DNA of 64,000 nt from Auricularia sp. M13 (lineage: Eukaryota; Basidiomycota; Agaricomycetes; Auriculariales; Auriculariaceae): positions 2,914,001 to 2,978,000 of the forward strand of contig CM073202.1 of assembly GCA_037042915.1 (NCBI GenBank), written 5' to 3'. Below, one piece after another: positions 17,878-62,190 of the stretch. Under the pieces are notes generated by a model, which saw nothing but the letters and a program-made list of their open reading frames with translations, was not told the origin of the DNA and made no database searches. Position 1 is the stretch's first letter, and every line of letters begins with the position of its first letter. The position numbers were made by a program, and so were the translations under genes.

Positions 17878-19302
17878 ATGATCCCGGACAAAAGGAAGGC
17901 GCGCGGCGCTTCAAGCACCAACTCGTCCTTGTCCTCTCCCCTCCTCTCGATCCTCTCGAGAATGCCCCACAATGCTTTTGGCATGATCGCGAGCACAACC
18001 ACCCCGGCTGCCGACACGGACGCGCCTGCACAAGCACCCATGCCACCTACCGATCGATGTGGCACCATGGCGAACGGTGCACCTGCAGGTCTTCCCACCG
18101 AATACAACGCACTGAAGCGATGCACCACGATGTTCCACGACGATGGCGTTGTAGAACGCCACGACGAGGCCGCGAGAAGGCCGGCAAAGCGGCGCCGAAT
18201 GGGACCAACGAAGAGCCACAGAGCGCGGAAGCGCGGCGTGAGTAACGCTGCGGCAGCGACCTGTGGGCCTTTCGTAGACCCCATTGCGGCAGCGCCCGCT
18301 GCCCTGGTCGGAGAAGCCTCGCATGCTGCCCTTCACCGCGGGACCCGAGCCACCGTCGACATCGGTATCACGCCGCTGGACTTGGACTTCGCCTGGTGCT
18401 GCGCTTCAGGAGCTGATGACGCAACATGCGTATCGATGAGCGTGCAGGACGTATTGATGAGCGTGCAGGACGTACGCGATAGTGTGGCTGGGCTTGTGGC
18501 TGGGCTGCCTGTCGCTGGCTACGACGCAGATGCGGATAATGGCGACAACTTCATGGCGACGCCTCTGAACCTGGACTTTGGGTACAACAGCCCGCCGGTC
18601 CCAGGCATCGCACACGACGACATCGACCCCGCCCTGCTGGGTATTAGCAGCGGCGAGCTTGACATCGACACGCTGCACGCACCCCGCTTCGACGGACCGC
18701 TCCGACAACTGATACCGGAGTCCGCGGCGTCGTACTCGCCACAATCCTCTGACGACGCCGGACGTGTTCATGGCTATTCTTACGCGCTGGAACCGACAAC
18801 CGTGAATCGGCGCTCTCGGGAGCTGGTGGACGACCAGAACCCGCTCCCGCCGCCGCTTGCCCTTCGCGACCATAATTCGGTAGTGCAGCCTAGCGCCCAA
18901 GGCCTGGAATTGTCGGGGTACATCGACCGTGATCACATCGCTGGGATGGATTTTGCAAGCTTCGTAGCGCTGTGGGAAGCCGGTGCTTGCGGGACTCGTC
19001 GGCGTCCGAGTCGGCGTGAATGTGCCCAAGTTGCGGACAAAACCGAGGAGCAAGCTGCTGAAAATCCGATCGTGCAGGTCTTGGGCACGTACACGGTCGC
19101 GTTTGATATGAAGCAGGAGGAGCAGGAGCACGATTTATCGGCCATCGCCCATGCGCTGCCCGAGACTGTTGGCGCTGTCGATCGGACCGTCGTGCGGCAT
19201 GCCGTCCTTGATAGCCTGGCAATGCTGACGCCGGCGCTGACACCCGAGCAAGCGCACGAGGCCGATCTCGAGAGGCTGGAGCTGGTGTCCTTCGAAGTGT
19301 AA
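17878..19302 (+). CDS. Hypothetical nuclear-type protein, intact tandem copy (474 aa)
   Basis: Uninterrupted ORF of 474 codons starting MIPDKRKARGASS. There is a strong basic cluster near residues 100-118 (RRPAKRRRMG, SHRARKR) typical of a nuclear localisation signal, then long Asp/Pro/Ala-rich low-complexity sequence with repeated TPLxLDF motifs. The C-terminus has MDFASFVALWEAG, a KQEE acidic segment and a leucine-rich end (LDSLAMLTPALTPE). No known domain; the composition suggests a regulatory or scaffold protein. A 21-bp direct repeat at about 18433-18474 duplicates MSVQDV. A broken paralogue at 20700-22097 keeps the same landmarks, and about 100 bp upstream of both start codons is also similar, so the promoter was duplicated too. 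Confidence 0.7.
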   Translation: MIPDKRKARGASSTNSSLSSPLLSILSRMPHNAFGMIASTTTPAADTDAPAQAPMPPTDRCGTMANGAPAGLPTEYNALKRCTTMFHDDGVVERHDEAARRPAKRRRMGPTKSHRARKRGVSNAAAATCGPFVDPIAAAPAALVGEASHAALHRGTRATVDIGITPLDLDFAWCCASGADDATCVSMSVQDVLMSVQDVRDSVAGLVAGLPVAGYDADADNGDNFMATPLNLDFGYNSPPVPGIAHDDIDPALLGISSGELDIDTLHAPRFDGPLRQLIPESAASYSPQSSDDAGRVHGYSYALEPTTVNRRSRELVDDQNPLPPPLALRDHNSVVQPSAQGLELSGYIDRDHIAGMDFASFVALWEAGACGTRRRPSRRECAQVADKTEEQAAENPIVQVLGTYTVAFDMKQEEQEHDLSAIAHALPETVGAVDRTVVRHAVLDSLAMLTPALTPEQAHEADLERLELVSFEV

Positions 19303-19364
19303 CTGGAGTCCAGCCGCACCGACCCTCCTCATTGACGACAAAGGGCTACAAGACCCGCAGATTA

Positions 19365-20135
19365 AGGTAGCAATCATGTACAGTCATCCGACGTGCGTGA
19401 CATGCCCAAAAAAGGCAATTGTGAAGGGTCCGGAGATACTCTTTGATTTCTATAAAATGGTACAATCTATTTAAGCAAAATCTGGCGTCAACATAAATTC
19501 GGGTCTTGGTATAGCTTTTGTTTTGTGCTGAGAATGTGAGCAACGGATGATTCCTGACAGAGGAGACCCCCTGAGACTGCCGGCTCTGCTGCTTCCTCTT
19601 CCTACGATGCCGCCCGCGAAGGCCTGGCGTGCAAAGAAGATCGCCAACATGGCGGGTGCGCAGGCCAGACTTACTACAGCCGTCCAGGGCATCAGCAATG
19701 GCCTCAAACGGCTTGCTTCCCCTCGGAAAACCCCCAGCAAAAAACCCCGGGTGCAGGCCGCAGAAAATGAGGCCCGTTGTCACTGATAATTGCCTTCATC
19801 ACTTCTAATACATGTATAGATGACGCCCAGCACTTGCTCTGGCAGGGCTGAGGCTCTACCAGCTCAGTCTGATGCTTCTGTAGCTGGTCTCTAATTGTAG
19901 CTCATTCTTCCAGTGTTTTGGGGTCTTGTCCCTGAGATTTTCCCCAATCACCCTGAATCCGGGTATACAGATAGCCAGTATACATTCAGAATTAATGTTG
20001 GCGACAGATTTTGTAGTAATGCTTTGGTTCAGATGCTCCCATATGAACAACAGTTTTCAATGACACATTACTTCCCAAAAAGGGCATGTCACGTCACATG
20101 TGACAGCGTCGGATGACTGTACATGATTGCTACCT
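19365..20135. mobile_element. 771-bp TIR element, copy 1
   Basis: Bounded by perfect inverted repeats of at least 29 bp starting AGGTAGCAATCATG, and flanked by the dinucleotide TA on both sides (19363-19364, 20136-20137). The body appears identical to 60789-61559 (constant offset 41,424). Subterminal GTGACATGCCC is also inverted. A 79-codon ORF (19547-19786) encodes a basic peptide (MPPAKAWRAKKIANMAG...SPRKTPSKKPRV), possibly the N-terminal relic of a transposase. TA duplication and TIRs point to a non-autonomous Tc1/mariner-superfamily-like DNA transposon. It sits just downstream of the intact 474-aa gene. Confidence 0.9.
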
Positions 20136-20699
20136 TAGAAGGATTGCGCGGACAGGCGAATAGATCGAACTTACGATTTCGTTTGTGTTCAGATAAATGG
20201 ACAGTACATGAAGGTTGCACGAAGCACTAACCAGCTCTCATCCCATACGATCAATAAGCTCTAGAATGAGGACGAGCCCCCAGGGAGGTGGAAGCTTAAG
20301 ACACGGCCTGTTTGAGAGCCGGGATCCCTGAGATCGTGACATTCGCATTGGTGTCGATGACAGAAGAGAGCAGGAACATGCTGCGGCTGAGTCCGAGCAC
20401 TCGCGGTCATCCTGGACTGTCAAGAACTATCGCAGCCTCAGGCTTCCCTCGTATCTCTTCAAGCTTACTATGCTCTAATGAGGACATGGTGATTCACAGA
20501 AGCTGAGACGTCTACGGGTAAATGTTGTGTTGGCAATTATATCAGCTCTGTTCCCCATCCTCCGCCGTGCACATTGCAGGGTCTGTTTCACATCAGACGA
20601 TTGCATCTGGAGAATGCACGATCGAGAGGACACGATGTGTCTATTGTCCGCTGAGATAAGACGGGATCCTGGACCACGCTTCGTCAGAGTCGCCATGCC
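20136..20699. other. Intergenic region, duplicated promoter at its right end
   Basis: No gene. Roughly 20570-20699 resembles 17750-17877 (shared GAGAATGCACG, CTGAGATAAG and CATGATCCCGGAC segments), so it is the copied 5' flank of the tandem duplication. Confidence 0.5.
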
Positions 20700-31344: not shown

Positions 31345-33226
31345 CTAAGGTGCGCCCGCCCAGTCCTTCGCAATCAGCACAGCAGCTCGCTCAGCAATAG
31401 CGTAGACGGAGGTTTGGATGTGTGCCGACACCTGCACAGGCATGATGCTGGCGTCAACAACGCGCAGGTTCTTCGTGCCGTGTACCCGCAACTGTGCGTC
31501 GACAACGCCGCCCTCCGCGTGCGCCATCATCGCGCACGTCCCCGTCGGGTGGTCGATGCTCGCCATCGCCTTGCGCGCGTACTCCTTCCACTCCGCATCC
31601 GTCTGCACCGCAGAACCCGGCTCGTACTCGGCCACCCAGACGTCCTTGAGCGGCGGCGTCTCTGCGACCTTCCGTATGTGCCTGGCGGCCGCAGCGACGG
31701 CTGCGAGGTCGTACGGGTTGCTGAGGAAGCGCGGGTCGAGAACGGGCAACGCGTGTGGCGCAGAGACGTTGATGTGGACGCTGCCCTGCGCGAACAGGTG
31801 CATGACGGCGCTGATGAGCGTGAAGAAGCCCTGCCCGAACAGGCTGCTGTTCTGCGTGGGGTAGCCCTTCGCGCCGGTGTATCCGTCCGAGAAGATGAGC
31901 TCAACGTCCGGCACGCGCGCGTCGGACAAGTACTCCATCTTCTTCCGGTCGATGGGCGAATCGTTTTGCGCTGAGGCACGCGCCAGAGAGGATAGCCTGG
32001 CGACGCTGACGTTGGCCTGCGCCCACGTGAAGTAGGCATACGCGCTGCCCGTGTAATCGTATGCACCACCGCGCAGGTCGGCGTTGTACAGTGCGAGCTG
32101 CTCGGCGGCGTATGTCGCGTTGTGCTTGACCTTGTCAAACGAGGTGAAGTTGGGCTTGAGCTGATATGAGTTCTGTATGCGCACATGCTCCTGCAAATGC
32201 TCCCCGACACCAGGCAGATCTATGAGAGTGGCGATACCAGCTTGGCGGAGAATTGAGCTGTTGCCAATTCCAGACCGCTCGAGCACACCAGGGGAAAGGT
32301 ACGTCCCCGCCGCCAGAATGACTTCCTTTCGAGCTCTGAGTATTGTCCCGTTATCCAGCGTTACGCCAGTAGCAATTAACATTCGGTCACGGTGAGGGCT
32401 GAAGTTGATTTTATCCACACTGGTGTTGGCTCTGATTACCAAGTTATGGCCTGCGTGCGGAAGATAAAAAATGCTGTAGCTTCTCGTGTAGTCGCGGGCA
32501 CGGAGATTACTAGGCTGACGCATCACGCCCAAAGGATCTCCATCCAGAGACTCCAGGTTGTTCCGCAAGCCAAGTCTTTCCATTGCAGGGATGAAGGCGA
32601 GCTGCTGCGCTGGAACGGCTTCATTGATCAGCGTTTGGATAGGACCACCAAATCCAACGCCCTGTCGACCGTAAACTCCAAACTCAGTGGGGCGCGAGAA
32701 GTTCTCCACGCGCAGCATGGCGTGGAACATCCCATCCCAGTCCCACCCGGAGCTGCGCCCGCCAAACGCGGCGTCGCTCCAGGCATCGTACTCGGCGCGT
32801 GACGTGCGGTCCCACGTCATGAAGTTCAGTGCGCTGCTCCCTCCAAGGACCTTTCCACGCGGCAGGGAGATACTGCGGGAACCAGCGTGTGGCTGTGGGA
32901 CCGTCGTCAGCTTCCAGTCGAATTGGGTGCCAAAGGTCGATCCTCGCAGGCCTGGGTTGTTAATGCCTGGCTCGGAGGGCGCTGAGACACCGGCCTCCAT
33001 TACGACGATGCTGGCAGAGGGCAACAGTTCTGAGAGCCGGGTCGACAATGCTAGCCCGGCCGTTCCTCCGCCCACGACAATCTGCAGTTCGAGTGTGTCA
33101 GTCTCACGAAGGTCGGTCGCGGTCATGGCAGTCCTTGCTCACGAAATCGTAGTAGGTGGTCGCCATTGCGCCAGCCAGAGAGGAGTAAAATAATAGCCAT
33201 AGTCTGGCGCTGCGAGGGGCGTGCAT
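31345..33226 (-). CDS. GMC oxidoreductase 1, aryl-alcohol-oxidase-like
   Basis: Exon 1 (33226-33143) encodes a 28-residue leader (MHAPRSARLWLLFYSSLAG...) ending Tyr-Asp-Phe. A 61-nt intron joins it to exon 2 (33081-31345) for 606 residues. FAD-binding motif IVVGGGTAGLALS, GMC signature 1 ([14 protein letters not shown]), signature 2 (GTYLSPGVLERSGIG), and the two active-site histidines in DHPTGT and SAHIQTSVY near the C-terminus. The family oxidises aromatic and aliphatic alcohols or sugars, passing electrons to O2 (giving H2O2) or quinones, and supports lignocellulose decay. The uninterrupted ORF from an internal ATG at 33126 is not the true start because it lacks the YDF residues that complete the FAD fold. 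First of four tandem paralogues. Confidence 0.9.
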
Positions 33227-33767
33227 GGAGAAGAGACTCGGGCGGGCAGAGATGCGCCTGTTAGAGACTACCCGATGCATGCTGACAGCGACGGACTGGC
33301 GTCTGACATCTAGCTATAACCATACAGACCCCGTAGCGCGCGCCTCATTTGCAATATAGTGACCTGCACCAGTCATTCTCGTGGCAGAGGGCTGCCTTTG
33401 CCAACAATACAGGATTGTTCATGAGATCACAGCAGATCATTGTGTTGAGAGCGCCAGAATTCGAGCTTGCGGCCGGAGGAGGGTGTCGCGAACGTTGAGG
33501 CAGCTGAGCTGGATCCTGGCGGCGTCCTCCGCAGGGATGAGACCCTGAGAGCGTGACCCGGGAAGCAATGCTCCACGTATTCGAAAGACGCACGTATTAG
33601 CGGATTCAATGCATGCAGACCCTTGAGATCTCGCGGCTCAGGTACAGTGACGATTATTACATTAATCCCACTAATATTCTGTAAAGCTGCGCCGACTTTA
33701 TGAGATCATTATTATACGAAGTGATGGGATTCTGCATTGGCACATACTGTAATTACCCGGACACGAA
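33227..33767. other. Spacer between GMC genes 1 and 2
   Basis: Promoter of GMC 1 and 3' flank of GMC 2. No gene seen. Confidence 0.5.
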
Positions 33768-35598
33768 TCAAGCGTAAGCTCGCGCAATGATGACGGCAGC
33801 ATTCTCGGCGATGCCATAGACAGCGGTCTGGGTGTGCGCAGCAATTTGAACAGGGATAATGCTGGCGTCCACGACGCGCAGATTCTTCGTACCGTGAACG
33901 ACGAGATTAGAGTCCACAACGCCGCCCTTCGCACGATCCATCATTGCACACGTGCTGGTGGGGTGCTGGACGCTGCCCACGACGGACTTCGCATACGCCG
34001 TCCACTGCTCCTGAGTCTGCACAGCGGCACCCGGCTCGAACTCGTCGGCCAAAAGCTCCTTCATCGGCGCCGTCTGGGCCATCTTGCGCAGATACTGCAC
34101 CGCAGCACTGATTGCTGCGAGGTCGTGCGCGTTACTGAGGTACTGGGGGTTGATCAACGGCGGGTCGAGCGGGCTGGACGAGTTGATGTGCACGCTCCCC
34201 AAGGCAAATGGGTGCATGAGTGCGGCGTTCAGCGTGACGAAGTTCTGGCCGAAGCGGGGACTGCCTGGTGGAGGGTAGGCGTTTCCGCCAGCGTAGCCGT
34301 CGCTGAAGAACAACTCGAGATCTGGGACACGAGAGTCCTGAAGATACGCAAGCTTCTTCTGGTCGATGGGCGACTCCGTCGCCGACGACGCAGGGGAGCC
34401 GAGGCTGATACCGGCCTGCGAAAATTTGAGGAACGCGTATCCGCCGCTGAGAGCGTCGTATGCCCCTCCTCGTACGCCAGCGTTATACAATGCGAGCTGC
34501 TGCGCAGCAAAGGTCGCATTGTAGATCAGCTCGTCGCTGGAGGTGAGGTTGGGCTTGAGCTGGTACACGTTCATGACGCGAACATGGTCCTGCAGGTTCT
34601 CCCCGACGCCGGGAAGGTCAAGGAGCGTCTTGATGCCGGCGGCACTGAGGATAGTGTTATTCCCGATGCCCGATGATTCTAGCACCTGCGGTGATTGAAA
34701 CGAGCCTGCACTGAGGATGACTTCCTTCTTCGCCGTGAGCACAGTGCCGTCCTCCAATGTGACTCCTGTGGCCACCAACGTGCTGGCCGAGTTGAAGTTG
34801 ATCTTCGCCACACGCGTGTTGGTCTGGATATGTAGGTTCGAGCCGGCGAGAGGGATATACGACGTGCTGTAGCTCCTCGTCCAATTGCCCGCCCGGACGT
34901 TGTTGGGCTGGCGGGCGGCGCCAATCGGGTTCCCGTTCAAAGAATTGATATTCTTGGGGAGCCCGAGCGCGACAAGCGTCGGGACAAATGCAGCCGCCTG
35001 AGGGGGGAAGACGTCGTTGAGGATAGTCTGGATTGGGCCGCCATGCCCGTCTCCTTCGCCACCATAGACGGTAGGGCTGACAGAGGAGAAGTTCTCCGAA
35101 CGTTGCATCGCAGCGTACATGTGCCGGAAGTCCCACGCAGAGCCGCGACCGCCAAATGGCGGATCGCTCCAGGCGTCGTACTCCGGGACTGACGCGCGGT
35201 TCCACGCCATGAAGTTAAGTGCGCTGCTGCCGCCGAGCACTTTGCCACGGAATTCTGGAATGATGCGGTTGTCAACGGCCGACTGGGCCACTGTGGTGAA
35301 GTTCCAGTCATACTGGGTGCCGAAAGTCGAGCCCTCCAAGCCAGGGACGTTGATCCTAGGCTCATCCGGCGCGGCAGACCCAGCTTCCAGAACGAGGAAG
35401 GTGCTCTTGGGAAGCAGTTTGGAGAGACGCACGGAGACAGCGATGCCTGCTGTTCCCCCTCCAACAATGATCTTCAGTGCTTCAGAGGACGCAATGTGTA
35501 CGAAGTGACTGGCCACGCACAAAATCATATGAGCTGGAAGCGGCAGCGGAGAGCACTGGTAGCACAGTGGATAAAGCGACTGTGGCGAATAAAAGCAT
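33768..35598 (-). CDS. GMC oxidoreductase 2, aryl-alcohol-oxidase-like
   Basis: Exon 1 (35598-35521) encodes a signal peptide ([20 protein letters not shown]) ending SSYDF; a 49-nt GTGCGT...GAAG intron leads to exon 2 (35471-33768), 593 residues in all. FAD motif [13 protein letters not shown], signature 1 [14 protein letters not shown], signature 2 [15 protein letters not shown], active-site histidines in QHPTST and AAHTQTAVY. Intact, secreted, and most similar to the fourth copy. Substrate preference within the GMC/AA3 family cannot be read from sequence alone. Confidence 0.9.
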
Positions 35599-36551
35599 GA
35601 GTAAGGTATTCTTCAGCACAGTGTGCCTTCAGTGTAGGCTTCGCACCTTATGTAGCTCTTTGGTCGTCAAAATTATCCGGCGGTGCTTGTTTTCAGATGG
35701 GCGCGATCCACCGGTGCTGCGGCAATGTGTAAGATAGTAACAGATCTAGACGCCCAAGGGAGTGTGTTAGATGTTTCTCATCGCCGAAATGCGCGCATTA
35801 AGCCTTGCCTAGATCGATGGGCTGAGAATTACCGAGTACCCAAGAGCTACCGGAGACTCGAGCGCGAAGATGGCAAATACTGGGATCTGTCCGAGAATCA
35901 GCACACATACAGTGGGTTCATGTGCACGAACTGTACGTTCAGCATAGTCCGAGAATCTTTTGTCATAATGATAGCACGCCGTGAGTTGAAGCAGTAGGTC
36001 CACGTCGGCACTGGCGACGGACATACATCGACGAGAGTATACAACTCGGTCGGGACTGGATAGCATCCACTTCATCGCCGCGTCAGTTAGCCAGGGTCAA
36101 TATGCAGGGCATTTCCAGGCGCCGCTGTGTATCCCGCGCGGTTTGGGAGTGGGTACGGGGTCATCGCTGGAGTAAGTAACACAAATTCTTGGATAAAATA
36201 GCGCTTGTTTGCAACACTGACCTACTGCGGCCAGCGGGTATGGCAGGGTGTGTCGTTATACGCGAAAGTGCGCGCCTGCTCGGAAACCTCTTGAAGTGCG
36301 TTCGTGGAGGAGAATGGAGAAAAGCATCACGTGCATTCCAACTCCGCGCCTTCCACGAGGTTTTATAGCTCAAATTGAAAATTTGGAGCTTGCACTAAGC
36401 GTCAGCTCTGTAGAAAAGTGTTGATCAATGTGCTCTAAGGTCTCCTAAGAGGCAGGCTGCAGGATAATGTGTAACCTTGATTCCGTCAGCGACTTGACCA
36501 ATAAAACCAGTGCATTAGCAACTAATATCAAGCCCGCAAGAGCCTGAGTTG
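35599..36551. other. Spacer between GMC genes 2 and 3
   Basis: About 0.95 kb; short ORFs only. No repeats recognised. Confidence 0.45.
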
Positions 36552-38531
36552 TCAGAATTTGTTGACTGTCAAATACTTCAACAACATGCTGAATACCTCC
36601 AGATCATAACGGTTGGGTAAGCAAAAATCCGAGTCATTCGGGCACCTGAGCTTACGAAACGATAAGGATAGCAAAGGTACATGACTCGAACTACGAGAAG
36701 AGACGCTCCTATAATCCTGTGAGATCAAGGTAGCGGCTTGCTCGGCTATCCCATACACAGCGGTCTGAATATGAGCCGAGACCTGCATCGTTAGGACACT
36801 CGCATCTACAACTCGAAGGTTCTTCGTGCCATGAACGACAAGACGGCGGTCCACAACACCTCCTTCTTCGAGTCGCAGCATCGCACATGATCCAGTCGGA
36901 TGATAGATCGTGTCCACTGCGTCGACGGCGTACTGATCCCAAACTACAGGGTCTGTGGCACCGGGCTCATACTCGGCATCCCACACGAATCGCAGTGGCG
37001 GCGTCTCGGCTATTTTGCGCAGGTAGCGCGCGATGGCGGACACGGCGGCAATATCGTACGAGTTGCTGAGATAGCGCGGGTCGACGACGAGCTGCCCTGG
37101 AGCTGAGATATTAAGGTGAACACTGCCCCGCGCTAGAGGGTGCATCACCCCGCCGATGAGCGTGAAGAAGTTCTGGCCATAAAGACTGCTTCCCACAGGA
37201 GGGTAGCCCTTCGTACCCAAGTATCCATCGGCGAAGATAACCTCGACGTCTGGCACGCGCGCGTCCCGAAGGAACGCAAGCTTCTGCCTGTCGGTGGCCG
37301 ACTGACGGTCGGCGGACGCCTCTCCCACCGCAAGCATCTTAGTGCCGAGGTTAGCTTCGAGCTGTTCCCACGTGAGGAATGCGAACGAGCTGATGGAATA
37401 GTCGTACGCCCCTCCTCGCACGCCGGCGTCATACAACACACGCTGCTCTGCCGCATACGACGCGTTGTGGATTAATGCGTCGCTGGAGACGTAACCTGGC
37501 TTAAGCTGATACGAGTTTTGCACGCGGATGTGGTCCTGCAGGTTCTCCCCGACGCCAGGAAGATCGACCAGCGGCGATATTCCAGCTGCGCGAAGAAGAC
37601 TGCTGTTGCCGACGCCAGAAACTTCAAGCAAATGCGGAGAATGATAGCTGCCCGCGCTGAGGATGACCTCCTTCGCCGCTCTCAGCACGATCCCATCTGC
37701 AAGCGTGACGCCAGTTGCGACTACTAGCTTTCCACGAGGACGCAAAGTTGACCTTCGCCACGGTCGTGTCTGTCATCACGAGCAGATTCCGGTTTGCGAG
37801 CTGGAGGTACGACGTGCTGTACGACCGGGTATAATCACGGGAGCGGATATTGCTTGGCTGACGCGCCACGCCGAGAGGGTCGCCATCCAGGGACTCGAAG
37901 TTGCGACGAAGCCCGAGCTTCTCCATCGTGGGAATGAAGGAGCGCTGCTGCTCAGGAACGACGTCGTTGACTACAGTCTGCACGGGCCCGCCGTAGGATA
38001 CGCCTCGCCGCCCGTATACGCCTTCCTGAGCCGGGCGAGTGAAGTTCTCCGCGCGCAGCATAGCAGTGGACATTTCCTCCCACGTCCACCCTTCGCCCCA
38101 TGCGTCAAACTCGCCGCGTGAGGCGCGATCCCAGCCCATGAAGTTGAGCGCACTGCTTCCTCCCAGGACCTTCCCGCGCGTCAAGGGGAAGATGCGTCCA
38201 CCGGCGCCTGGCTGCGGAACGGTGGTCAAATTCCAGTCGTATTTAGTGTTGAAGTTGGAGCCCTTAAGCCCGGGAATGTTGATGCTAGGATCATGAAGTG
38301 CATCCGATCCAGCCTCAATAACCAGGATTGTGCTGGCAGGCAGTAGCTGAGACAGACGCGCCGATACTGCCAGTCCCGCCGTCCCGCCGCCCACGATAAT
38401 CTAGATAGACGCCTATGTAAGAATAACTGAGAGCGTCGGCGCGGAGATATACCCACGAAGTCGTACGATGGTAGGAATAACTTCGAGAGTCCGAAGTAAG
38501 CATAGAGAAAGGTCCAGAAAGTGACCAGCAT
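36552..38531 (-). pseudogene. GMC oxidoreductase 3, frameshifted
   Basis: Exon 1 (38531-38457) encodes a leader ending PSYDF and splices in phase to exon 2 at 38400 (FAD motif [13 protein letters not shown]; signature 1 [14 protein letters not shown]). Near 37735-37745 the frame shifts by one base: VAKVNFA continues as nonsense, while KLVVATGVTLADG resumes in the next frame and runs through signature 2 (GSYHSPHLLEVSGVG) and histidines YHPTGS and SAHIQTAVY. The C-terminus also runs about 45 codons past the paralogues' stop. Either a recent pseudogene or an assembly error at 37.74 kb; the lost stop favours decay. No in-phase intron bridges the shift. Confidence 0.75.
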
Positions 38532-39349
38532 CGCCTTCGAGAAACTCGTTGGCCACGATCGACATTGACTGCACGTAGGTCATTTAAGATGTTCCTGTGT
38601 TGGTATGCGCCAAAGATTTGGGAAGAGAAGACTGGTCAGATGGTGGCCCGCCAAGATTCGGCGTTCGGCGAGTAGACGGACCCGAACATGTGCGAATCTG
38701 CTTTTGCGCCAACGGTGAGCCCATCGACTTGCAGGTGATATGTGATCTTAGGTGCATCATGCTATTTAGATGGTTAAGGCCTTCATAAACACGCACGTAG
38801 GTGGCAGCTCACAGACCACGTTGGCAGATATCAAGTTATCCTCGGGAGCACTACCTATGACGGTAGTATGCCTTATCAGTGTGGTGAGCGCTGCAAGATC
38901 GTGCGTCAATGTCACAGGGACTTTTACAACCCTGAAATAAAGGAGCCTTGATCACTAACCGGGCCCCGTGTGATTCAATCCGCAAGACGGAATACCACCG
39001 CCGTCCATGCATCCCAGCGACCGGGCGCGGTCATGAGCAAATTAACCATTAATCCGAATGGCCAGGTTTTGTGGAGTTGCTTATACCGAATGCGCATAAG
39101 CACGTAGTGGAAGATGAGGAGTACATGTTCCAACTCCGCTGCTGCACAGGAATCCGGACATCTTTGTGAAACATTACTGAGCTCAGTTTTACAGACTATT
39201 CGCTTGTTATCCGATGTGGCATCGATAAGCATCTTCATATATTATATGACACATTCACGGTAGGGCCAGGGGGGGAGGGGGGTGCATTATGCGTCATTAA
39301 AGTTACGACTAGGTAGTGATTGTATCCAATGAACTCTGTCGTCTCACAC
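38532..39349. other. Spacer between GMC genes 3 and 4
   Basis: No gene. Contains a guanine-rich run at about 39262-39282. Confidence 0.45.
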
Positions 39350-41186
39350 TTACGCTTTCCAAGCGTCAGCAATAAATTGGGCAGCACGCTCAGCGATACC
39401 GTAGACACCGCTCTGGATATGCGCAGTGATCTGGACGGGAATGATACTAGCGTCGACGACGCGAAGGTTCTTCGTGCCGTGAACGACTAGCTTGGGACCG
39501 ACGACTCCGCCCTCCTCCTGCGTCATCATCGTACACGTGCTCATCGGGTGCCAAATGCTGAACAGCGCCTCCTTCGCGTACTCGGTCCACTGCGCGGGCG
39601 TCTGCACGGACGGGCCGGGCTCGAACTCGAGCTCCCAGACGTCCTTCAGCGGCGAGGTCTCCGCGATCTTGCGGATGTACTGCACGAGCGCGCCGACGGC
39701 CGCGAGGTCGTAGGCCTTCGTCAGGTACTTGGGGTCGATGACTGGCAGGCCGTACACATCAGCTGGGTTGACGTGTACCGTGCCGAGCGCGAAGGGATGC
39801 ATGACGCCGGCGGTGAGGGTGAAGAAATTCTTGCCGAAGCCGGGCGTACCGGGCGCGGGGTAGCTCGCCCTGCCTGCGTAGCCGTCGCCGAGGATGAGCT
39901 CGATGTCGGGCACAGTCGGGTCCTGCAGGTACTCGATCTTCTTCTGGTCGATGGGCGAGGAAGACGCAGAGCCTGCGATGGTGGAGTTTAGGTCGAAGCC
40001 CGTGTGCGCCCACTTGAGGAAGCCGTACGAGCTCCCGGTGTAGTCGTACTCGCCGCCGCACGCCAGCGTCGTACAGAGCACGCTGCTCCGCCGCGAACGT
40101 CGCGTTGTAGGTGAGCTCGTCCTTGCCCGGGAAGCCGGGCTTGAGCTGGTAGACGTTCTGCACGCGGATGTGGTCCTGCAGGTTCTCGCCGACACCGGGC
40201 AGGTCGAGGAGCGTCTTGATGCCAGCGGCGCTGAGGATAGTCTTGTTGCCAATGCCCGACCACTCCAAGATCTGCGGCGACTGGAACGCGCCGGCGCTCA
40301 GGATCACCTCCTTCTTCGCAGTAATCACAGTGCCGTCGGCAAGAGTCACGCCAGTCGCGACGAGCGTGCTACCAGACTGGAAGTTGATCTTCACGACGCG
40401 GGTTTCAGTCTGCACCTTAAGGTTCGAGCCGGCGAGCGGGAGGTAGGACGTGCTGTAGCTGCGGGTCCAGTCGCTCGGGCGAATGCTGCTGGGCTGGCGG
40501 TCTGCGCCAATGGGGTTGCCGTCGTTGGACAGAGTGTTGTTCGGAATGCCGAGGTTAATGAGGGTGGGGATCAACGCCGCCTGCTGGCGTGGGATGATCG
40601 GGTTGACGATGGTTTCGATTGGGCCGCCGTGGCCTACGCCCGTGTCGCCGTACACGCCGGGGATGCTCGGCTGGGTGAAGTTCTCGACGGCCAACATGAC
40701 CGGGAAGAACGAATCGAAGTCCCAGCCCGAACCGGTGCCGCCGAAAGGCGCGTCGGTCCAAGCGTCGTACTCGTGCGCGGCGGCGCGGTCCCAGGTCATG
40801 AAGTTGAGCGCGCTGGAGCCGCCGAGCACATGCCCACGCGGATGGGCGAGCTGGCGGTTGTCCACTGCCGGCTGCGGGATCGTGGTCATGTTCCAGTCGT
40901 AGCGGCCGTTGAATGTCGACCCGTCCAACCCAGGGATGTTGATGCCAGGCTCGTTCGGGGCAGCGGGGCCGGCCTCGATGACAAGGATGGTGCTCTGGGG
41001 AAGTAACTTCGAAAGGCGCGTCGAGACCGCGAGACCAGCAGTACCGCCACCAACGACAATCTAATCATGTCAGAACGCAGAGTTGCAGAGTCGGTGAATA
41101 TCACGCACAAAGTCGTATGAGCTGGGCGTCGTGGCAGCCAGCCCCGGGAGCGCAGAAAGCAAGGCAAAGGAAGTCAGCATCAGCAT
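39350..41186 (-). pseudogene. GMC oxidoreductase 4, frameshifted
   Basis: Exon 1 (41186-41109) encodes a signal peptide (MLMLTSFALLSALPGLAA) ending SSYDF and joins exon 2 at 41060 (IVVGGGTAGLAVS, signature 1 [14 protein letters not shown], signature 2 GAFQSPQILEWSGIG). At about 40051-40063 the expected AGVRGGEYDY is broken: only one base sits between the Val codon and GGC-GGC-GAG, so two bases are missing or one is extra. The rest is intact in the new frame (histidines WHPMST and TAHIQSGVY, stop at 39350). Because this is the only lesion and lies in a CGGCGG run, a sequencing or assembly error is quite possible and the gene may be functional. Confidence 0.7.
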
Positions 41187-52146: not shown

Positions 52147-52332
52147 TGTCAGAATATCTTCTGGTTGCGTGCTTGTAGTGCCCTCGGCAACCTCCGTTCA
52201 CTGTATAGTACACCGGGATGTGCCGTAGGTAGTCTTTGCCGCGAACACGAAGTACCCCTCGCCGGCTTGCTCACAGCGTCCAACGACCCGAGCCCCAGGC
52301 GACGCGTCACTGTCCAACGACAGTTCTTGACA
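52147..52332 (+). repeat. Right LTR, 186 bp
   Basis: Matches the left LTR over its full length; preceded by the purine tract and followed by the CCTCG duplicate. Confidence 0.9.
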
Positions 52333-52337
52333 CCTCG

Positions 52338-53842
52338 TTCCCCCGCACACCCTCGTGCCCAGGGACCCAAGCTAGTGTTACACACGTAGCATCGTCCTGC
52401 GCCAAGAAGGGGGAGATAACATCAGCGAAAGCGATAGCAAATATCTGACCGGGCGCAGGGGACAAAGAAGCGATGCGCCCAATAGCAGCATCATTGTCTG
52501 CAAAGAAATATATGTGAGTAGCTTGAATGTTTGGTCTGCGCGCAATTTGCACCGCAGCACGTGCACCCTCGACCAGTGCATGTAGCTCGCCATCATACAC
52601 ATCACCTGCCTCACCCAGACCGCGAGCCAATGCGTGCACATTTCTGCCGCGGTGTACAAGAACTGCACCCGAACCTGCTGAGTCTCCAAGCAGAGACCCG
52701 TCAGTATAGACGAGAAGAGCCTCTGGAGTCATGTGCAGCTGTGATGCAAGGCGAGTGTGCTCAAGCGCCGCCTGCCGCTTGTCAGTATGGGGTGGTTTCT
52801 GCAACACAGCGAGACGACCACCCCATCTGTTGACAGGCTCATCCCATGGGGCGAGTAAGCGGGGGTTAATCCGCTCCCCACCCGCAGGGTACAGACGTGC
52901 CAGCCGTTGTAGGTGAGTCATCTCGCGAGGGTTGGCAGCAGAGCGAGCACGTAGTGGAGGTGGGTATTTACCCAACGCTCCATTCGACCAGTCTCCGCCT
53001 AGTCGCTGCCGAATGGGGTGCTCGCACGGAAACGATGCAAACCTGATGGCCGCACGTTCATTCCGCATACTGAGAGTCAATGCAAGCGGCGGGATGGACG
53101 CCTCAAGGTTGAGGATGTCCGTTGGTGTCGTTTTAAATGCTCCCAGGATGTGACGCAGAGCGCGACGGAGCACGACCTCCAACTTCCCAACCCGCGTTGA
53201 GTGGCGTTCATCCGCGGCGTACCACACCGTAGATGCAAATGTGAGGATTGACTGTGTGCAGGCTATGTGTACCGTCCGAAGATGATACGGAGTCAAGCCC
53301 GTGCGGGTCGAGCCAAGCATAGAAAGTGCAGTGACCACACTAGCTGCTCGCTCTGCCATCCGCGCAACGTGTGCAGTGAACAAGAGCTTGGGGTCCCAGA
53401 TTATGCCGAGCCACCTGTATAACAGCTTGGGCTCTAGGACATCGTCGCCATTGCCATCGTCACGGGGGAGCCGTAGCGCAGGGCGTGGGAGGTTTGCAAC
53501 GAGGTGCCCCCCGACATATAAGAGACCTGCTGAGTAATGTGCAAAGTCGCGCTTATCCTCGTCAAGCTGCACTCCGAATTCTCGTGCCCAAATCCGCACG
53601 ACGTTGTAGAGACGTTGGATGTGACGGGTATTGGTCGTGAACGACTTTGAGGAGGCATATATCTTGCCGTCATCAACGAACATGATAAGCCGGCCCTCAG
53701 TTGAGCACGTCCCCACACCCATGGATCGTCTGATGTCAGCTGCTGCTGCCTGCAGACGGTCCGCGAGGGACTTAGAGAATATCGCAGCAAGGATGGGCGA
53801 TACCGAGGAACCCTGCGGGATGCCGCTTAGTACCTGTGCCAT
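52338..53842 (-). pseudogene. 5' part of LINE ORF2 (RT and RNase H)
   Basis: About 500 codons open without a stop, carrying the RT and RNase H motifs listed for the element. It runs into the inserted LTR, where it picks up a few foreign residues before a stop. The long undamaged frame argues for a fairly recent LINE insertion. Confidence 0.85.
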
Positions 53843-59280: not shown

Positions 59281-60339
59281 ACGAGAAGCGCTTTATTACA
59301 TCAATCTCCCGCCACTTGACACAGCATCGGGATCCCGAGATCTTGTGGGATTGTGATACAAACGGAGAGTCGCAGCGAATCTTGAGGGACCTGATTGAAA
59401 AATAATCAGTTTCTGAGGCCGACAGTGAGTTCTTTCTCAGAATCAGGACATCAACAAAACGTTCTCCGTCAGCGCGTCAGCCGTCGAAGTGGAGCCGACT
59501 TTCCGCTGACTGATCACGTGTGTTTCGGCGGTGGCTAAGTTAGCAACATGCAACACGCTTGCCCTTGCGCTTGCCTTATACCTACTATATTGACTGCTCT
59601 TGCTGCCTACAGTATCCGCATTCCAGTAGGGAGGCAATGGAAACTTGGTGCTTAAGCTCAGTCACGTTGTTTTTGGCCTTAATCAAGCCAAGACCTGGGC
59701 CCGAACTCTGACAATACCCCCGCAAAACGCTTCGTGATTCTTCTTGACCTTTCGTTCCACAGCATCCTGATGCCGGCCAAGCAGCGGGAACCATTGCACC
59801 ACTAACTGAATTTCTGACTGGGGGGGGATGGTCTACGCCGGTGTTTTGCAGCGCATGCAGGCTCTATAGTACGCAAGTATAACTTTACCAGTAACTACCG
59901 TGGTGCTTTGAATCAGGTCCTCTCATTGCTTTACGACCCTATCCTCCACGCCCGATCTGTGCAGAAGCTCCCTGCCCACGTTTTTGAGATGTCTTGCACT
60001 ATTTGAGCACGCAGCGATACTAAATGCAGAGGGTCTTTGCGCCCGGTATGCCTGAGGTGACTTCTGGCCATTTTCTACTATGCATAGTACTTATGGCACA
60101 TTTTTCACATTCCGTGGCAGGACGCACCATTTCTATCGCATCTGCGTCATTTGGTACAGTATCCATATACACAGTACATTCTTCCATTGATTCCCACAAT
60201 TATCATACACCGCGACTGCAAGATGCCCTAGTCTACCTGAGAGCGACGCTTGTACAGCGACCCCTCTTCCGGCGGTGCGGGCGGGGTCGCTGTATAAAGA
60301 TGCCCGGTGAACACTGCAGCCGTTTGGCAGTGGTCTTGT
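59281..60339. other. Intergenic region, nothing convincing
   Basis: No ORF of quality. An imperfect GC-rich hairpin (GCGACCCC...GGGGTCGC) sits at about 60257-60293. Confidence 0.4.
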
Positions 60340-61841
60340 TCACTGCATGTGCTTTGGGTCTGGGGCCTGACGCAATTCCTCGTAGAGCGTGGACGACGCG
60401 TCTGACTCGGCGATCCCGCTCGGACTTGACAGGGCCTGCTGCCGGAAGCGAGCCTCGCTGACGCTCGGAGCCATCGATTTCAGTTTGTCGAGCCGCATCT
60501 GCAGCACGGCCGACAGCACCGCCGTCTTGTCGCTCTGCTCGTCCCCCTTCCGGAAGCGGATAGGCCAGATGCGCGCCTCGATTTCCCGCTGGCGCCGCCG
60601 CCGTAGGTAGACGATGATTCCTGCTGAATAATCAGAGGAATTGCTCAGCGCTCAGCTTCTCAGTCTGGGAAGGCTCGCGGGCAGAGGCAGAGGACTGAGT
60701 GCTGACGTACCGACTGCAGCGAGAACTGAAACGAGTATCACGGGCGCGACGATGACGGCCAGTGGCGGCGCCTGGCGCGATGGTGCTAAGGTAGCAATCA
60801 TGTACAGTCATCCGACGTGCGTGACATGCCCAAAAAAGGCAATTGTGAAGGGTCCGGAGATACTCTTTGATTTCTATAAAATGGTACAATCTATTTAAGC
60901 AAAATCTGGCGTCAACATAAATTCGGGTCTTGGTATAGCTTTTGTTTTGTGCTGAGAATGTGAGCAACGGATGATTCCTGACAGAGGAGACCCCCTGAGA
61001 CTGCCGGCTCTGCTGCTTCCTCTTCCTACGATGCCGCCCGCGAAGGCCTGGCGTGCAAAGAAGATCGCCAACATGGCGGGTGCGCAGGCCAGACTTACTA
61101 CAGCCGTCCAGGGCATCAGCAATGGCCTCAAACGGCTTGCTTCCCCTCGGAAAACCCCCAGCAAAAAACCCCGGGTGCAGGCCGCAGAAAATGAGGCCCG
61201 TTGTCACTGATAATTGCCTTCATCACTTCTAATACATGTATAGATGACGCCCAGCACTTGCTCTGGCAGGGCTGAGGCTCTACCAGCTCAGTCTGATGCT
61301 TCTGTAGCTGGTCTCTAATTGTAGCTCATTCTTCCAGTGTTTTGGGGTCTTGTCCCTGAGATTTTCCCCAATCACCCTGAATCCGGGTATACAGATAGCC
61401 AGTATACATTCAGAATTAATGTTGGCGACAGATTTTGTAGTAATGCTTTGGTTCAGATGCTCCCATATGAACAACAGTTTTCAATGACACATTACTTCCC
61501 AAAAAGGGCATGTCACGTCACATGTGACAGCGTCGGATGACTGTACATGATTGCTACCTTACCTCTGGTGTGCACTCTGCTATCGGGCACTCCCAGCACG
61601 AGCTTCACAGTGTCGATTTGCGAAAGTCGGCATGCGTGAGATGACATAGCCACAGTAGCCACGAGCATAGTACTGACCCTTCGGTAAAAGCGCAGGCCTC
61701 GTCCGGCATGCAATCGCACTGCGGCTTCACGCACGCGTCCAAGGACAGGCAGTTCCCCGTGTACTGGTTAGAGGTAGACGGCGTTACTTCGGAGCTGGTG
61801 AGTGCTGAGACGGCGCGGCCTTGGCGCGAGCTGCGAGGCAT
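60340..61841 (-). pseudogene. Opy2-like membrane anchor protein, disrupted by a transposon
   Basis: Exons, apart from the insert: upstream exon ending at 61678 (candidate ATG 61841, unproven), 61602 to 60711 interrupted by the 771-bp element, and 60620-60340. The ectodomain has the Opy2-type cysteine spacing (CDCMPDEACAF, CWECPIAEC), then one helix (AVIVAPVILVSVLAAVGIIVYL), an arginine stop-transfer run and a tail of about 90 residues ending DPKHMQ. In yeast Opy2 anchors Ste50 at the plasma membrane in the HOG/filamentation MAPK pathways. With the insert, reading hits TAG inside the TIR, before the membrane helix. Discounting the insert and one TA leaves the frame unbroken. Confidence 0.75.
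60789..61559. mobile_element. 771-bp TIR element, copy 2 (in Opy2-like gene)
   Basis: Same element as 19365-20135, same length, apparently base-for-base identical, with TA on both sides (60787-60788, 61560-61561). It lies within the exon encoding the juxtamembrane segment of the Opy2-like protein. Confidence 0.92.
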
Positions 61842-62190
61842 CTCGGATAGTGACTGGGGTGGGACGACAATGCCATACGGCTTATAGCTGTTCCCAAGCA
61901 CAGATTGAGACAGAGACAGGCTTACCAATTAGGTAAGGACGAGTATTTGTGAAGCAAGTCCTTCGGTGCCGTGGCTCAGCCTCGATCTGCGACGGCCGCC
62001 CAACTTGAAACAGAGTCAAGAGCGAATGAAGACTCAACTTCCCGCGGGACCGTGGTGCAAAGAATGTCACTGCCAACACCCGTTGTCTGCGTGTACTGGC
62101 AGACGTTGGACACAGGGAACAAGGGGAGAACTGTCCATCTACGGCTCCCGGGCGCGGAACAAAAGGGGTCTATCGCCCGACTCACTACGT

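Follow-up and report, generated by a model that had tools for sequence, protein, structure and literature searches.

A recently copied inverted-repeat transposon in a putative Opy2 paralogue of Auricularia

Among classical IS630-Tc1-mariner members the second D and the E of the transposase are separated by about 34-41 residues. The element described here resembles this group in having a TA on both sides and terminal inverted repeats (TIRs), and in the DDE_3-like ELNPIE block with which the transposase encoded by a longer relative finishes, but the D, D and E motifs of that transposase, picked by eye, stand 113 and 165 residues apart, so that the short classical spacing is not found. Another comparison is with introners, whose inverted ends and target duplication can furnish splice sites on insertion, as described in the excerpted text of PMC9860276, in which no word starting with "basidiomycet" occurs. 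Where introners come in many copies, the family described here has few (10 TIR ends and three complete short copies), and one of the other complete short copies sits after an open reading frame (ORF).

The gene that the element interrupts is to be compared with Opy2. In Saccharomyces cerevisiae, according to the excerpted part of PMC13233613, Opy2 is a single-pass protein with an extracellular eight-cysteine motif, its cysteine-rich domain associates with Msb2 and Hkr1, and the protein connects to Ste11 through Ste50. The tail of yeast Opy2 binds Ste50, going by the title of a reference quoted in PMC9530204, and a passage of PMC6347418 states that the helix contacts Sho1. The interrupted gene would likewise combine an eight-cysteine motif with a single pass, but its tail shows no similarity to those of a second Auricularia gene and the relatives of that gene. 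Closer is the likeness to P0003 of Auricularia subglabra (AURDEDRAFT_179971), which we read as Opy2 and which has the identical eight-cysteine spacing, 5-4-1-5-6-2-4, and after it one membrane helix and a basic stretch. The cytoplasmic tail of P0003 is however about 480 residues long, and that of the interrupted gene is short and without detected similarity.

The transposon, its copies and its longer relatives

The stretch of DNA that we studied, called the window below, comprises 64,000 nucleotides (C10:2914001-2978000) with a GC content of 56%, and the genome searched amounts to 52.1 Mb in 14 contigs. On its minus strand the window also holds three GMC oxidoreductase ORFs (31345-40889), and an ORF at 52310-53842 that matches reverse transcriptase and RNase H and is the remnant or a copy of a retroelement.

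The non-autonomous TIR element lies at 60787-61561 and measures 775 nt with the flanking TA on each side, the core being 771 bp. Its 31-nt inverted ends, each including the TA, are perfect, with the left arm at 60787-60817 and the right arm at 61531-61561 being 100% complementary. When the genome was searched with the element, a second copy appeared in the same window at 19363-20137, about 60 bp past the stop of the ORF at 17878-19302, and the two copies do not differ at any of the 775 nt, from which we conclude, with no rate applied, that the event was recent. The flanks of these two copies, taken as 500 nt, show no mutual similarity at E 0.01, and the copies are therefore separate insertions and not parts of a duplicated segment. 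Elsewhere in the genome, contig C11 has a copy at 92% identity, C12 has two fragments at 98-99%, and C4 has two relatives that are longer. The complete short copies number three in this search, and all three have TA at both ends, presumably by duplication of the target. In a search allowing up to 3 mismatches, the 31-nt TIR end occurs 10 times in the 52.1 Mb, every time exactly, and the same search with the reversed 31-nt pattern as a control gave no occurrence. Around the copy on C11, one 128-bp stretch is common to both flanks at 96% identity (L011, around 1064-1563 and 2332-2831). No empty site was seen in the assembly; the upstream flank of the insertion (61562-61900) is single-copy, and the piece of the gene that encodes the transmembrane (TM) helix and the tail has no other copy. 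The earlier note had described a recently mobile TIR element of 771 bp, and its perfect ends and an identical copy in unrelated flanks confirm this; the element is real, repeated and recently copied.

The complete relative on C4 is 3091 nt long and has the same ends as the short element, of which it would be the long form; between positions 520 and 521 it has 2316 additional nucleotides, which hold most of a transposase. The second C4 copy is without the outer 16 nt of one end. The two stand head to head (L010 956-7133; C4:1060455-1066632), and a 16-nt piece of the TIR (L010 956-971) is found outside one end, and the outer 16 nt that one copy misses are those of its own other end, where the next copy starts. 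The pair is likely a nested or rearranged insertion. Over their common length these two copies are set apart by ten single-base indels alone, without any substitution, and since nine of the ten sit in runs of one base they look like assembly noise, which warns against a fine reading of frames near such runs. A 444-aa piece of the second C4 copy matches DDE_3 near its end only, at 27.6 bits against a cut-off of 28.6, and a relative on C5 with 52% identity scores 38.0 bits, above the cut-off. That the short element arose from the extant C4 copy simply by deletion is ruled out by 23 mismatches in the 520 nt of the left arm (95.6% identity) and 1 in the 255 nt of the right arm (99.6%), and because of these unequal arms the C4 copy is a relative but hardly the direct parent. 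We infer that the transposase was supplied by a full-length copy.

There is also a related family of 735 bp, with the ends TAAGGTAGGAACCGTG, which was seen twice on C2 (L027 1213-1946 and L028 802-1536) and once on C1 (L029 709-1443). A G precedes the TA on the left side in 3/3 copies, and these insertions likewise form GTAAGG.

The interrupted gene and its counterpart on contig C1

The gene, which we call the window gene, is on the minus strand, and all its exon borders are predicted. Exon 1 (61678-61841) is modelled from an ATG at 61841, which is an uncertain start, and would encode most of the eight-cysteine motif. Intron 1 (61603-61677; GTCAGT...AAG) has the position and the phase of the predicted intron of a second gene, on contig C1, and in both genes it follows FTEG/FTTG and splits the motif. 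The predicted exon 2 is itself divided by the element, with the end of the eight-cysteine motif before it (61562-61602) and the membrane helix after it (60711-60786); the best 19-residue hydropathy, 3.03, is found across the junction of exons 2 and 3. Intron 2 (60624-60710; GTACGT...CAG) has an acceptor that is possibly 3 nt further, and exon 3 (60340-60623) would give the end of the helix and a short cytoplasmic tail of about 94 aa before the stop TGA at 60340-60342. The single helix after the motif, also a feature of Opy2-like proteins, is thus present, and in this allele the element separates the two. The interval 60711-61602 is exon 2 including the element, just as the earlier note had placed the insertion, in an exon, after the cysteine-rich ectodomain and before the helix.

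Coming from upstream, the frame enters the inverted end as GTA AGG TAG, and unless the element is spliced out it reaches this in-frame TAG at 61554-61556, which leaves a predicted truncated product of 70 aa with eight cysteines and no helix. The frame on the other side, GCA CCA TCG from 60786, runs into the helix, and with one TA counted both flanks of the element share one frame. That reading through the insert ends at a TAG within the TIR, before the membrane anchor, and that the frame is continuous once the insert and one TA are discounted, had both been read from the sequence before, and both hold. As the exon ends are predicted and not observed, one could imagine that the insertion site was already intronic in the true gene, which would then be undisturbed. 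The C1 paralogue however reads intron-free through the matching stretch, the shared frame of the flanks would otherwise be a 1-in-3 coincidence, and the expected sequence is present on both sides, with the last cysteine of the motif before the element and the helix after it; we find a site that was intronic from the start very unlikely.

In exons 1 and 3 the GC content at third codon positions is 0.78 and 0.83, respectively, as compared with 0.73-0.79 in three reference ORFs, and is lower in the two pieces of exon 2 (0.69 and 0.64). By codon statistics the expected frame comes out best in the helix piece and in exon 3; in exon 1 this frame is level with one other, and from the ATG at 61841 the codon score is slightly negative (-1.2). 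Upstream of the modelled start, at 62370-61907 on the minus strand, there are coding-like stretches beginning MGIQPHQLLMLLTALL, which may be 5' exons of the window gene with a possible signal peptide. Thirty alternative models of the 5' end fit this region with none preferred, three pieces of it had no Pfam match, and the piece at 61979-62152 has no second copy in the genome. A short hairpin repeat, TACAGCGACCCC ... GGGGTCGCTGTA, follows directly on the stop codon (60220-60315, in the presumed 3' UTR); its translation has 17 further matches in the genome (E 8.6e-8 to 0.01), which makes it another small repeat family.

As judged from its sequence, the ectodomain of the window gene is Opy2-like. 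An HMM check against the Opy2 family had been proposed, and against PF09463 the ectodomain gives E 0.0025 and 18.5 bits, which is below the cut-off of 22.1; this Pfam model fits weakly here, and the spliced C1 gene itself scores 9.3 bits (E 1.9). Three of the 120 listed relatives of the C1 gene, P0003 being one, have exactly the cysteine spacing of the window gene, and the spacing seen most often in the 120 starts 2-5. From 75 of these relatives we built an N-terminal HMM, the other 45 being dropped with fewer than six cysteines in their first 70 residues, and the window gene scores 18.0 bits with it. No shuffle of the same letters among 2000 reached this score, although the margin is narrow (the best were 15.3 and 14.5), and the best of 1633 ORF pieces of the window had 14.1 bits. 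The exon-1 peptide has only one other match in the genome, at C1:4042554-4042631 (E 0.0025, 56%), and the reverse search from the C1 gene returns the window locus (E 3.9e-4, 58%). A six-frame search of the whole genome with the Opy2 Pfam model listed neither gene, likely because the intron splits the motif, and for the C1 gene also because the model fits weakly. The one match of that search lies on C6 (18.4 bits, E 0.205), and we reject it as chance, as it has an internal stop and its surroundings, viewed by eye, are without an Opy2-like gene.

The C1 gene (C1:4042536-4044263) is open and encodes 557 aa, as 34 residues, an intron and an open exon of 523 residues. The best match of this exon, at 86% identity, is A. 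subglabra AURDEDRAFT_179971, of which the C1 gene is the full-length counterpart; that protein is named hypothetical and has no precomputed Pfam domain. Of the 7995 candidates scored, 497 are relatives of the exon at E <= 0.01, and the Opy2 Pfam domain is present in 19 of the 120 listed relatives, some of which are named Opy2. The C1 gene is best read, from these homologies, as the canonical Opy2 of the fungus. Opy2 was not found in the basidiomycete Wallemia ichthyophaga, according to the excerpts of a paper from 2016 (PMC4904012), in contrast to which the named matches of the C1 exon place Opy2 relatives in many mushrooms. A match to Ras_bdg_2, the family of the Ste50 partner, was seen on C4 just under the cut-off (26.3 vs 27), and a literature search for Auricularia with Opy2 gave one paper, a melanin review with a single mention of Opy2.

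The tail is where the two genes part. The 94-aa tail of the window gene has no similarity to the C1 tail (BLASTP, E 0.40), and a full-length profile of the C1 protein and its listed relatives over 500 aa, those of 500 aa or less being dropped, had no match at the window locus at E <= 10, a silence that is not strong evidence about the tail because the profile also missed exon 1. The conserved cytoplasmic tail, which binds Ste50 in yeast, is thus not found in the window gene. A protein search with the TM-plus-tail piece, in a query that included 28 intron residues, had no relative at E <= 0.1 among 739 candidates, all proteins of about 138-441 aa, and for this reason the intact window gene is seen in no other genome. 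The tail exon weakly matches Pfam Trimer_CC (E 0.002, 18.2 bits, cut-off 27). We therefore read the window gene as best described as a diverged, short-tailed paralogue of Opy2.

These results bear on the idea that the insertion breaks the main Opy2 of the fungus and alters osmostress and filamentation signalling, which the earlier note had raised. The ectodomain of the window gene is indeed Opy2-like, but the intact C1 gene with its Opy2 relatives largely refutes this, the canonical tail is not detected in the window gene, and such a loss is highly improbable. An intact second Opy2 that made this copy redundant had been named as the finding that would count against a meaningful loss; the intact gene is there, and the redundancy does not follow, because the window and C1 proteins differ in their tails. 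The earlier observation was right and carefully read, and the consequence drawn from it was too strong.

Consequence of the insertion

We think it quite probable that a recent insertion of a non-autonomous element truncates a diverged Opy2 paralogue while the canonical Opy2 on C1 is intact. An IS630-Tc1-mariner type transposon, mobilised by the transposase that a longer relative encodes, would have inserted at a TA in exon 2 of the short-tailed paralogue. Without splicing, translation would stop at the TAG in the inverted end, and the product would keep the eight-cysteine motif and have neither membrane helix nor tail. With the first cysteine as early as residue 9, the proteins of A. subglabra and C1 have little room for a signal peptide, and the helix is therefore probably the export signal too. 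Its loss should therefore leave a non-functional peptide, although the 5' end of the gene could change this; the truncated product is most likely without function. Ste50-linked signalling probably continues, because the canonical C1 gene is intact, and the loss of the window gene need not disturb it. The claim that the loss alters Ste50-linked stress responses accordingly finds no support, with an intact Opy2 on C1 and a tail in the window gene that is unlike the canonical one.

A gene with the eight-cysteine motif kept and the canonical tail not detected might also be thought of as a natural decoy, whose loss would raise and not lower signalling. This is argued purely by analogy with yeast, it presupposes an intact allele, and the tail could have another role; we hold a decoy to be improbable.

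Of the claim that an Opy2-like gene has been broken, the Opy2-like ectodomain stands, but that the gene is the Opy2 of the fungus finds no support, and it is broken at the level of DNA, where a splice that keeps the frame is possible. The element could be tolerated as a new intron, from the donor GAG/GTAAGG, which arose because the element landed after a G, to an exonic CAG at 60772, with a few codons lost and the frame, helix and tail kept. This hypothetical intron, made by the insertion, would span 60772-61562 (791 nt; GAG/GTAAGG ... GCGCCAG/), and among the 1397 GT-AG pairs read no other keeps the frame through the helix without a stop (1702 pairs were enumerated, and the 305 with the donor inside intron 1 were left out). 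The consensus of splice donors is GTRNGY, and the donor made by the insertion fits five of its six positions. TIR elements that act as introns, borrowing or carrying their splice sites, are described in the excerpts of PMC9860276, and the average intron of A. heimuer is given as 291 bp in those of PMC6786273, which we count on the side of a new intron. The length of 791 nt speaks against it, as does the acceptor context GCGCCAG, and at both ends of the two remaining complete short copies the base outside the TA is something other than G. As a control, with neither donors nor stops scored, we took 110 TA sites from four coding ORFs in the same genome; 18 of them would have a comparable acceptor, in frame and no more than 60 nt away, following a donor made with a G, and the frame-keeping splice is therefore no strong coincidence. 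On balance a new intron is unlikely. Put as an intron at birth, the TIR end and the duplicated TA would give a good donor, G/TAAGG, and the exon the acceptor, and the mRNA would encode a tail-swapped Opy2 paralogue complete with its motif, helix and tail, and this too we regard as having a small chance.

Truncation of the paralogue is thus the reading that we prefer, and there is little unusual in a recent insertion that hits a diverged paralogue and spares the main gene. What the locus shows is that a family of short DNA transposons has recently moved in a cultivated mushroom genus, and that the genome still contains a longer relative. The functional reading is corrected as well, as this Auricularia would have an intact Opy2 and beside it a diverged paralogue that shares the eight-cysteine motif but has a different tail. 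The remaining interest lies in this tail-swapped paralogue and in the question of splicing, and if the element is spliced, the locus would add a new case of an intron gained from a TIR element.
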